Source of the DNA: Mycoplasmataceae bacterium
GTDB taxonomy: Bacteria; Bacillota_I; Bacilli_A; Mycoplasmatales; Mycoplasmoidaceae
Length of the DNA: 38,695 bases
Assembly: GCA_031258945.1 (NCBI GenBank)
Contig: JAIRME010000010.1
Span: 1 to 38,695 of the forward strand
Direction of reading: 5' to 3'
Below, one piece after another: positions 1,857 through 38,695 of the stretch; the stretch's first letter is position 1, and each line of letters begins with the position of its first letter. The position numbers and the translations under genes are program-made. The notes below the pieces were generated by a model, which saw nothing but the letters and a program-made list of their open reading frames with translations, made no database searches and was not told where the DNA came from.

Positions 1857-1905
1857 CCCCCCCCTATTTATCTTCATATGCTTCATTATACAATAGGGGG
1901 GGGGG
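1857..1905. repeat. C8/G10 homopolymer inverted repeat around a promoter
   Basis: C8 at 1857-1864 followed by TATT, and AATA followed by G10 at 1896-1905, form a 12-bp inverted repeat. The minus-strand TATAAT (1890-1885) lies in the loop. Runs this long are exceptional in this AT-rich sequence. Both tracts are prone to replication slippage, and together they could extrude a cruciform. Confidence 0.8.
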
Positions 1906-28257: not shown

Positions 28258-29448
28258 TTACTTTTGCATGAAGCTTGGTCACACTTTAACTATTCCACCA
28301 TAAATTTGTCTTAAAATATCTAATTGGAGATTTCTATATTCACTATCATTCTCATAATTTATTTGGGTTTCTCTATGTAAACCGTTAGCAAATCCTAACT
28401 GGTTATAATTTTGATCTCCGGTTTCGATATCATAGATTTGATCTCACTGAATTGTTCAGTCATTAGTTCAATTTTCATGATCATCAAAAAAATAGGTATC
28501 ATTTAATTCATCGTATGCAGCACCAGCTTTACCACCATCTACTAGAAACGAGATATTAAATAATCTTGGGCCGTTTATTAGTTCTCAACTGGGTTCATGT
28601 TCTATATGAATCAAATGGACTGTAGTTTTCATAAAATTATCCAAGCCCATATTACCGTCCATAAATTCGCAAAAATAGTCAGATAAAATATTAGCCGCTA
28701 ATGATTCAGAATTATCATATTGGTGGAGTTTATCCATCATTTGAAAATAACTTAATGTCGAAAGATCTAATTTATCTTCTTCATCCAATAACGGTAAATT
28801 AGGGAACTCACTTGATAAGAAAGATTTAAAATTTTCTAATGCGTCTTCTGGATCGTCATTTATCATTTCATCACCAGTTATATCTAGCCCTGAAATTTTA
28901 TTAGCATCAATATAGGGAGTGGAATTTTCATTATCCAATATTAATAAAACATTATTTTCATGGGACGTACCGTGAAATCAGGACCTCAAATTTAAATTAA
29001 TATGAAATACTCCTCCTTCTCCTGCATCGTCTGGAATTTGAGAAATTAATTTAGCATTAACAACAAATTCTTTTAGCCCTTTGTTTAAACTTATATGAAT
29101 AGTTCCTCTTGAATCTTCATATGGAATTGTTTTACCATTTTGATCTTGGAAAACTAACAATGAAGAAAATAGTGTACTATATTCAGCATCAGGTGAAATT
29201 AAAATTACTGCTTGAGAATCTAATTTTTCGCTAAATTCAATTTTATAAGATGCTACATCATTAACTTTTTTTAATACTGCATTCCCATTCACTTTAGCTT
29301 TAATTACAAAAGGATTATTTTTATTCATAATAGCATAGGTTACACCTACTGTCACTCCACAAATTAATAGTCCTCCAAAAATACTAGATAAGATAACTTT
29401 TCTCCTATGTTTTCTTACTCATTGAGTATATGTCTGTGTTGTTTTCAT
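28258..29448 (-). CDS. Signal-anchored surface protein, paralogue-like to the gene at 1-1743
   Basis: 396 aa from ATG 29448, which follows a GGAG Shine-Dalgarno sequence, to TAA 28258; eight or so TGA codons are Trp, four of them clustered near residues 315-335. N-terminus MKTTQTYTQWVRKHRRKVIL, then a hydrophobic segment at about 20-42 (SSIFGGLLICGVTVGVTYAI), then an Asp/Glu/Asn-rich outer region of about 350 residues. The anchor resembles that of the protein at 1-1743: Trp, basic run, S-I, L-x-C-G, then G-x-(T)Y-A-I. The middle part is acidic (DEEDKLDLS); the end is aromatic and Gly-rich. No domain recognised. Driven by the poly-C promoter at 29519-29552. Confidence 0.85.
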
Positions 29449-29518: not shown

Positions 29519-29552
29519 ATTATACAACGGAGGGGGGGGGGAATTGAGTGAT
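29519..29552 (-). promoter_or_regulatory. Promoter with C10 spacer tract, second surface gene
   Basis: Minus strand: TTGTATAAT, -10 at 29524-29519, preceded by TCCG and C10 (29541-29532) and then AATT. The -35 match is weak (ATCACT, 29552-29547, 3 of 6, spacer 22). Beside the copy at 1885-1917 it shares AT[GC]ACT, the ten C residues, TTG before TATAAT, and GAAGATA[AG]AT 10 to 14 nt downstream. It lies in the spacer after purH. Confidence 0.65.
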
Positions 29553-35611: not shown

Positions 35612-36409
35612 TTATCCAGACAATCCCTGATATAGTTGAAATAAAAGGTCTGATGACAATTGTTCGCTTCTAATAGTTAAATCCAGTCCTAATTTATGTA
35701 ATTGCTGTTGAATGTCATCCACGGTATAAATACTTTTGAGATTATTCACTAATGTTTTTCTCTTGAAAGCAAAACATTGGCGAATAAATTTAGCTCAATT
35801 ATCATTAAATGATTTATTCAACTTACTTATTACAATAACATTTGATTGTACTTTGGGAATTGGTGTAAAAGATTGTGGTGGTACATTTAATAATTTACCA
35901 ATAATTGCATAAAATTGTAACAAAACCGAAATACTGCCATAATTCTTAGTAGCAGGTCTAGCAATTAAACGATCTACTAATTCCTGTTGTAACATACAAT
36001 AAAATACTTTGATTTTTTCTTGTTTTAAAAATTTAATAAGCATCGGTGTACTAATAGAATAAGGTAAGTTAGACACCAAAACTATTCTTTTATATGAAGC
36101 AGTTAATTGAGTTAAATCTATATTTAAAATATCATCATTAATTACTTCTAAATTAGCATATAGATTAAATTTATGCTTTAACAAAGCGGCCAAGCGTTTG
36201 TCTAATTCAATTGCTATTACTTTATGATTAAATTGAACTAAATATTGAGTTAATGCGCCAGTGCCCGGGCCTACTTCTATAACTAAATCGTATTGCGCGA
36301 CATCTATTAGATTCACAATAGTCTGTGCTATATTATTATCAGTTAAAAAATTTTGCCCCATTTTTTTAGAAGGAACAAAATTTTTAATGTAATTAAACTG
36401 TTTTTGCAT
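35612..36409 (-). CDS. rsmA: 16S rRNA dimethyladenosine transferase RsmA (KsgA)
   Basis: 265 aa. Dimethylates two adjacent adenosines in helix 45 of 16S rRNA late in 30S assembly. MGQNFLTDNNIAQTIV near residue 16, VIEVGPGTGALTQYL near 43 for SAM, IAIELDKRL, NDDILNIDL and the catalytic VSNLPYSISTPML near 112 are all standard. Continues through a TGA at 35794 to TAA 35612, adding the C-terminal domain; without that reading it would be 60 residues short. ATG overlaps the yidC stop by 1 nt. Confidence 0.96.
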
Positions 36410-37548
36410 TACTCCAAACCCAAAGATTTTAGACGAGATTCTAATTTACCACCTCGTCGTCTATTCCTTAAAATAATGACATGCATTAAATAAGATTGTG
36501 CAATTGAGAATAGAGAGTTCAAAAATCAATATACACCTACACCTACTGCTGAAAAAGCTACAATTAAACCCATTGCTCCAGCAAAAATAGTCTGGAATGT
36601 TTTCATCCGTTTTTGTTGCTTATTACCTTTATCACTAATCGCCGTTGCATTCCGATTACGATGTTTTGCTCAACGTTGTGGCAATTTCATGGATAAGAAT
36701 TGTGCGGGGATAACTAATAATAGAAAGAAAATGAAAGTTCAACCATTATGAGTAAATTCGCTACTAAATATTTGACTCAATGGTGTAACCCCAAAAGATC
36801 AAATCCCAAATAAACTAGTAGCTTTCAATGGACGTAAAATAGTAACTACACGATACACTATCAAAAAGATAGGTAAAGTAATGAACATTTGCTCAAAAGC
36901 AGCAAAAGGTTTGATATTATATTTTTTATAAATTTCCATGGTTTCCTGCTGTTTTTTTTGTTTGGAAGCCATATCTTTCAAATCTTTGTATTTAGCATTG
37001 ATTTCAGAAATTTTACCTTGTACTTCAGTCATCTTTTCGTTTTGCAAAGTAGAACGTAAAGTTACCATAATGGATAAAGCTCGAATAATTAACAATAAAA
37101 CAAAAATAGCCATTAATGCATTAAGACCACCTGCTCAATCACGAGTAGGATACATTAAATTTTGCACCAAAGCTGCCCCAGGATACACAAATATGCCATA
37201 AAACGGCCCATATGCCATAGTTCATTGAGTAAATGTATGGTATTGTTGTCCTGCTGACACAGATAAATCATATCTTCAATCACCAGTTTGGCCAAATGGG
37301 AAACCAAATTCCAAACCTGAACCAATAGTGCTATTAGTAGACACTGAACCATCTCACATGGTTTGGAAACAACCTCAAAGCCCCATAATCATCATAAAAG
37401 CAAATAAAGCTAATTTACTTCATTTTCAAATTTGTTTGCCTATTTTTTTAGCATTACCAGATTTAGAAGTAGGCTTAACTCAAAACGGACTGACGGTTAC
37501 ATTGCCAGAATTAGAAGTAGAAAAAGAAAATGCAGGTTTAGTACTCAT
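36409..37548 (-). CDS. yidC: Membrane protein insertase YidC/Oxa1
   Basis: 379 aa with many TGA Trp, so only a middle piece is open under the standard code. Inserts membrane proteins alone or with Sec. About 45 polar residues come first, then a hydrophobic stretch at about 50-66 with GLWGC, which could be a lipobox as in SpoIIIJ; the conserved Oxa1 core starts near 115 ([20 protein letters not shown]), helix with [16 protein letters not shown], the cytoplasmic coiled loop [16 protein letters not shown], then four further segments. The conserved Arg in IIRAL lies in the hydrophilic groove position. Basic C-terminus (RNRRRGGK) as expected for ribosome contact. Downstream of rnpA by 2 nt. Confidence 0.95.
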
Positions 37549-37550
37549 TT

Positions 37551-37880
37551 TTAGAAATGAATAAGATTATATACTTCGTTAAAGAACTTTGCATTGTTAA
37601 TGTACTTATTGTTAATGTAATTACTTTTTACTATCACAATCATGTCAATTGATTTAGGCTGCACTCTTTGAATAATTTGACGTAGTTGTCTTTTAATTAA
37701 ATTACGTGTAACTGCTTTAGGGAAGTTTTTTTTATTTACAGCTAACCCAAAACGTAATTGATTTAAACAATTAGGTCTTGCTCTAATTTTAAAAATTACA
37801 TTATTAAAAACTTCGTGTTTTTTAATAATAGCAGCAAAATCAGTGGTTTTTTTTAAAGCACAAATTTTGTTATTTTTCAT
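37551..37880 (-). CDS. rnpA: Ribonuclease P protein component
   Basis: 109 aa. Basic protein that helps RNase P RNA cut the 5' leader of tRNAs. [16 protein letters not shown] at the start, [26 protein letters not shown] near residue 43 (the family RNR-like signature KAVxRNxxKRxxR) and [11 protein letters not shown]. Start ATG 37880 lies inside the end of rpmH, with an 11-nt overlap. Order rpmH-rnpA-yidC is the one usual in bacteria. Confidence 0.95.
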
Positions 37881-38016
37881 CAGAAACAGTTAATTTATGT
37901 CTACCTTTTAATCGACGACGAGCAATAGTTTTTTTACCCTTACTAGTTTTAGACCTTGATAAAAATCCATGTTTCTTAGCACGTCTAGATTTATTGGGTT
38001 GGTACGTTCTTTTCAT
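37870..38016 (-). CDS. rpmH: 50S ribosomal protein L34
   Basis: 48 aa. [20 protein letters not shown] then [12 protein letters not shown] is the full L34 signature. Too short for many gene finders. ATG 38016 lies 7 nt after TACAAT. Upstream lies a lipoprotein gene, not dnaA, which is its neighbour in many bacteria. Confidence 0.97.
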
Positions 38017-38023
38017 GCTAATA

Positions 38024-38029
38024 ATTGTA
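38024..38029 (-). promoter_or_regulatory. -10 box of rpmH, leaderless
   Basis: TACAAT on the minus strand ends 7 nt before ATG 38016. Drives the rpmH-rnpA-yidC-rsmA-ispE-gltX run, whose members overlap or are spaced by 2 nt. Confidence 0.55.
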
Positions 38030-38099
38030 ATAAAAATAATTTATAAAAACAACATTATTACTTGTTAAGGGTTAAACAATTACATTGCTCTCAAATAAA

Positions 38100-38695
38100 T
38101 TATTTATCCTCTGGGAAAGTAACATTATTTCAGTCAAAGAATGATATTCAACATACCATATTTGATGTGAATAACTCATCTTTGAACTTTATGCGTCTCA
38201 TATAGTCCATTTCATAAGCTTCTATACTATGACTCGTTGCATCAAATGGCTTGCTAAAATCAAAATTTCATGTGGATTCATCTTTGTCTCCAATAGTAGA
38301 ACATGCAATGTTTTGATTAATATAGCTTACATTCTCCCTAATCTCGTATGTTTCTGAGACTGGATTCATGTTTATTTCATGTGGTTCTTTGTATAACATT
38401 GCAGTTCAATTGAATTCATTATTTGTCACATTCAAATCTATGGATATAACTTGTGATGAATATCATTTAATAAAATATTCTCAAAGAAACGCATTGCAAA
38501 TAAGTTGAATATTAATTTCCTTTTTAACAAAATTGTAATCATCTTCGTTTGAGCTTAAGAAAAATTCATGAACACCACTAGATTCTTGTTTATGATCTAC
38601 CAAATATTGCATAACTTGATCTGGTGAAGTAAACTCCCAATGAGTTTTCTTAGCGCACGAGGTGAGAGAAAAAGTTAGAGTACTAATCCCCCCCC
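38100..38695 (-). CDS. Lipoprotein, 5' end outside window, G tract in signal peptide
   Basis: About 198 codons from the window edge to TAA 38100; no stop with TGA as Trp (five or more TGA). The first visible residues are GGISTLTFSLTSCAKK: the end of a hydrophobic signal with lipobox LTSC, so Cys would be lipidated and the rest displayed outside. The first codons come from a run of at least eight G on the coding strand (38695-38688), which is cut by the window edge. The mature part of about 185 residues is rich in Asn, Glu, Ser and aromatic residues. No domain recognised. Upstream start and promoter unseen, so frame through the whole tract is not proved. Confidence 0.75.

Follow-up and report, generated by a model that had tools for sequence, protein, structure and literature searches.

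The P48-like gene of M. agalactiae (MAGa1620) carries a G10 tract, and deletion of a single G brings a signal peptide and lipobox into frame (PMC2824730). For P68 of M. bovis, the account cited in PMC2824730 gives a tract that varies between 8 and 10 G, with nine G allowing full translation. The spma family of M. agalactiae comprises surface-lipoprotein genes that share a conserved leader and have poly-G tracts (up to 13) at the 5' end (PMC2824730). Frameshifts within a homo-guanine tract of the signal-peptide region switch PilC of N. gonorrhoeae on and off, and the Neisseria Opa proteins, a multigene surface family whose genes switch independently, have CTCTT repeats in the leader-peptide coding region (PMC5354566).

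We analyzed a 38,695 bp stretch of DNA (the window) that is the complete contig C33 of a mycoplasma-like metagenome-assembled genome (MAG; G000; 835,014 bp in 46 contigs, 85.8% completeness). TGA is translated as Trp throughout the conserved housekeeping ORFs of this genome, and we therefore used translation table 4. The plus strand of the window ends in CCCCCCCC at 38688-38695, which corresponds to G8 on the coding (minus) strand and is open toward the contig end. Read on the minus strand, the window starts with GGGGGGGG followed by ATTAGTACTCTAACTTTTTCTCTCACCTCGTGCGCTAAG, encoding GG-ISTLTFSLTSC-AKK, and the table 4 frame, GG-ISTLTFSLTSCAKKTHWEF..., is a 5'-open ORF of 197 codons plus a stop codon (38100-38693, minus strand; stop at 38100-38102). 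These observations agree with the original prediction, made from the sequence of the window, that at least eight Gs encode Gly-Gly just ahead of ISTLTFSLTSC and that the window ends inside the tract. Since the end of the contig falls within the G run, the length of the C33 tract is readable only as at least 8 G, and the start codon would lie beyond the window.

The tract (38688-38695, minus strand) codes for Gly-Gly(-Gly) within the hydrophobic stretch of a signal peptide, the C-terminal half of which, ISTLTFSLTSC, spans 38655-38687 on the same strand, with the lipobox Cys codon at 38655-38657. The ORF has the features of a bacterial lipoprotein: the lipobox SLTSC-AKK with its +1 Cys in the window, and, in homologues, the basic n-region MKK. 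Searches of Pfam and NCBIfam gave no match to the protein (E up to 1); homologues were found in the same genome (C7:3646-4209, C44 and C14) and in a congener, G021 (contig C11). Between the tract and the Cys, the window ORF has no in-frame ATG, GTG or TTG and no basic residue, indicating that a functional signal peptide needs a start codon 5' of the tract. The frame that begins at the first of the eight Gs reads GGGLVL followed by a stop codon, and direct reading of the third frame gives a stop two codons past the run (GAT TAG); translation in either wrong phase thus ends immediately.

Homologues fill in the missing 5' end. Over the final 46 nt of the window, identity to C25:1464-1509, part of a paralogue in the same genome, is 96%. 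The C25 tract (C25:1502-1510) has nine Gs and is in frame, reading MKKTKIIVTLIPIILV-GGG-ISTLTFSLTSCAKD, with an MKK start 5' of the tract and a mature part unlike that of the C33 protein. Similarly, the G021:C11 homologue (42% identity) has nine Gs in frame, reads MIMKKIKLLINLASVILIG-GGG-ISTLTFSLTSCAKK and has an MKK start 5' of the tract. The 21 nt that follow the tract (ATTAGTACTCTAACTTTTTCT) are identical in C33, C25 and species G021. Because both homologues have an MKK start that is 5' of the tract and in frame with it, the tract lies between the start codon and the lipobox, and we infer that the C33 gene has a 5' end like those of C25 and G021, with an upstream MKK-type start; a start codon downstream of the tract, which the original prediction had named as evidence against a switch, is not what the homologues have. 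The near-identity of C25 and C33 over 46 nt, combined with proteins that differ beyond the lipobox, and the conservation of the 21 nt past the tract even in species G021, also fit an alternative in which the tract and the next 36 nt serve mainly as a recombination joint that gives different lipoprotein bodies one signal peptide, with changes in tract length a side effect. However, within this genome a 5' block shared by different bodies is clear in one case only, and most tract genes have a signal-peptide sequence of their own; we consider such a primary role quite unlikely.

The case for a switch draws on other lipoprotein genes with such a tract; the genome has at least eight, of which we count four as in frame and four as out of frame. 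Those in frame have tracts of 8 G (C10:17672 and C12:2969) or 9 G (C25 and C41:52041). Two of the out-of-frame genes belong to the protein family of the window ORF: C7:4204 has 8 G and needs 9, with a 188-codon ORF after the tract, and C44:635 has 9 G and needs 8, with a 185-codon ORF after the tract. Retention of these ORFs indicates that the two are not decayed genes. The other two are C7:19581, with 7 G where 8 are needed, and C24:4370, with 9 G where 8 are needed; at C24:4370 the tract is just past the lipobox Cys, and the frame was read by hand. Across the out-of-frame tract genes, intact ORFs of 147-322 codons are retained downstream. A further pair lies in a 365-nt dovetail overlap of contig ends: C1:10593 has 8 G and is in frame, and C35:58136 has 9 G and is out of frame. 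In addition to the one-G difference, the overlapping sequences have about five other changes; hence, the pair need not reflect recent slippage and may instead represent two alleles (two strains) at a single locus in the sample, or two copies that are nearly identical. In-frame and out-of-frame forms with an intact remaining ORF are thus present both among the four-plus-four paralogues and at C1/C35. For any single gene, a homopolymer error in the consensus is possible.

The relatives G002, G009 and G024 have more signal-peptide tracts of 7-11 G, in frame and out of frame. Accordingly, tract length is not constant (a constant length being the other observation that would have counted against a switch): lengths of 7-11 occur across homologues and paralogues in both phases, and 8 and 9 G occur at C1/C35. 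A search for a tract followed by 12-42 nt and a lipobox gave 37 match positions in 7 of the 36 genomes of the genus, as compared with 3 in the reversed control. Across the 298 genomes of the order, this pattern was concentrated in the same genus, with one or two matches per genome elsewhere; a match outside the genus, in G249, was read by eye and has a stop codon in the lipobox frame. Most lipoproteins found by a simple signal-peptide scan of the source genome (37 of 42) have no tract. TATAAT is located just 6-9 nt 5' of the start codon in several genes of the signal-peptide class (G002:C1, C12 and C28; G000:C1), which suggests that these lipoproteins may be expressed from leaderless mRNAs. 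A different arrangement was observed near a contig end at G000:C7:24-34, where a lipoprotein gene has 11 Cs on the coding strand directly past the lipobox Cys (TSCNSSPPP).

Both polymerases and ribosomes tend to slip on runs of 8-10 G, a property that would favor an explanation at the level of expression, in which transcriptional slippage or programmed ribosomal frameshifting generates both products from one genotype, such that the gene is tuned rather than genetically switched. Intact ORFs downstream of the out-of-frame tracts are in keeping with this possibility, as is the proposal of ribosomal shifting as an alternative for the P48-like gene of M. agalactiae, from which protein was detected although the gene was out of frame (PMC2824730). 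However, tract lengths and phases differ among paralogues and between overlapping contig ends, indicating length changes at the DNA level over time, and the C25 and G021 homologues are in frame, making a shift unnecessary. We therefore regard slippage or frameshifting during expression as an unlikely basis for the tract.

The abundance of the tracts far exceeds chance expectation. Runs of 8 C or G matched eight times in the window, as compared with 0.04 expected from dinucleotide shuffles. Genome-wide, the numbers of G/C runs fall to a few at lengths of 6-7 and rise again at 8-9, forming a second mode, with 70 runs of at least 8 in 835 kb. On coding strands, 20 G runs of at least 8 were observed, as compared with 0-3 (mean about 1) in 20 shuffles of synonymous codons, an excess of about twenty-fold. 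At a cut-off of at least 9, the genome has 36 G/C runs in 0.84 Mb; in meningococci, the average number of poly-G tracts of this length is 15.4 per genome (PMC5953494). These numbers bear on whether the tract simply codes for a glycine-rich signal peptide, or is an inert relic, and plays no part in switching. The signal peptides at C13:18062 and C19:1023 have Gly-Gly without a G run, which is compatible with such a reading; nonetheless, GGG accounts for just 10.7% of Gly codons, and this, together with the excess over synonymous expectation, the separate run-length mode at 8-9, and the presence of several family members whose reading frame is broken at the tract alone, leaves inert coding disfavored and, in our judgment, most improbable.

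We consider it highly likely, on the strength of the homologues, that the G tract of C33 is an on/off switch operating by translational phase variation through slipped-strand mispairing. The start of the gene would lie 5' of the contig end and encode an n-region of the MKK type, and the G run would encode Gly residues in the core of the signal peptide. Slippage by one G during replication would shift the frame of the lipobox and mature protein. The lipoprotein would be made and exported from a tract of 9 Gs (or 6, or 12), and with 8 or 10 Gs translation would be expected to stop within a few codons past the tract. The original prediction of a translational switch is thus supported by homologues and paralogues; at C33 itself, tract length presumably varies in the population, with slippage the probable cause and surface variation the putative benefit.

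The switch had also been proposed as a second mode of variation beside poly-C promoters, and a promoter class of tracts was indeed found. We identified 27 promoter-type arrangements, made up of a C tract 4-13 nt 5' of TATAAT, which places it in the -35/-10 spacer, a G tract located about 18-29 nt 3' of TATAAT, or both. Three tracts of this class are in the window (1857-1864, 1896-1905 and 29532-29541). Those at 1896-1905 and 1857-1864 form one minus-strand unit, consisting of C10, 5 nt, TATAAT and, 20 nt downstream, G8, so that a promoter-spacer tract is combined with a leader tract, and are flanked by a divergent gene for a membrane-anchored protein (minus strand, 1-1752) and an mnmG-like ORF (plus strand, from 1972). 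The C10 tract at 29532-29541 (minus strand) is a promoter-spacer tract 7 nt 5' of TATAAT, ahead of a membrane protein ORF (28258-29448). Several G tracts of the promoter class (C24:13180, C37:14418, C40:3958 and C16:14473) precede a conserved leader that contains an inverted repeat (ATTAAATGAAATAGTGCTATAAGCACTAATTTAAT). In C14, the homologue of the window protein has no lipobox but a transmembrane N-terminus, and a G9 leader tract lies 5' of it, indicating that the same body occurs under both kinds of tract. It is conceivable, though rather doubtful, that switching of a single lipoprotein-body family in this genus occurs at two levels (promoter/leader at C14; signal peptide at C33, C7 and C44) while the conserved tract-lipobox block moves signal peptides between bodies, which together would amount to combinatorial surface variation.

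The original prediction further suggested that the window ends in the tract because the assembly broke at a slippery run. In a de Bruijn model with k = 119 (contigs of the congener G021 are named in the form k119), tracts of 8 and 9 Gs, or of 8, 9 and 10, gave a shared unitig that ended exactly past the eighth C, as C33 does, and C33 is the sole contig end in the bin that stops within a run of more than six bases. The break is therefore consistent with a tract present in two lengths (8 G, and 9 or more); loss of coverage at the G run would produce the same end. The missing 5' half of C33 was absent from the bin among the contigs checked, which were those starting with CC (C13, C21, C24 and C38): the first three show overlaps of about 119 nt with other contigs, and C38 shows one of about 50 nt with C5. 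Genome-wide, 18 of the 70 tracts are within 400 bp of a contig end, as compared with 2.9 expected; as evidence for slippage this enrichment is confounded, because many of these tracts are repeated promoter-class elements. Contigs of such MAGs may break at G/C runs.

The lipoprotein gene is immediately 5' of rpmH-rnpA-yidC on the same strand (37551-38693 from rnpA to the lipoprotein). The next gene downstream is rpmH, encoding ribosomal protein L34 (37870-38016, minus strand), followed by rnpA (37551-37880) and yidC (36409-37548), all three named from gene order and translation rather than from a family search. In mycoplasmas, the position immediately 5' of rpmH-rnpA-yidC is usually that of the dnaA/oriC region; in this genome, dnaA-domain matches are on other contigs (C41 and C22).

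Dense contingency tracts in an uncultured mycoplasma-like genus suggest that reduced genomes can cheaply keep a large on/off surface repertoire, and annotation of such MAGs will miss lipoproteins whose tract is out of frame. Given the precedents of P68/P48-like and PilC, the switch proposed for C33 is of an already known kind. P68 and P48-like, as described in the source cited above, are like the window protein in being mollicute lipoproteins whose coding sequence has a G8-G10 tract at its 5' end; they are basic membrane proteins P48/P68, whereas the window protein matches no Pfam or NCBIfam family, the families here being set apart by name, and the source genome repeats the tract in at least nine further lipoprotein genes, with recurrence in relatives as well. 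PilC shares with the window gene a homo-guanine tract in the signal-peptide region, but is a Gram-negative pilus-tip protein from an unrelated organism rather than a mollicute lipoprotein. Opa likewise has its repeat within the leader-peptide coding region, although that repeat is a CTCTT pentamer and the window tract is a homopolymer. The spma genes resemble the source genome in having poly-G at the 5' end of surface-lipoprotein genes; their tracts are described as 5' untranslated, and hence nearer to the promoter/leader class than to the signal-peptide class. What is new here is the genus that carries the tracts, their unusually high density, and the second, promoter-type class alongside.
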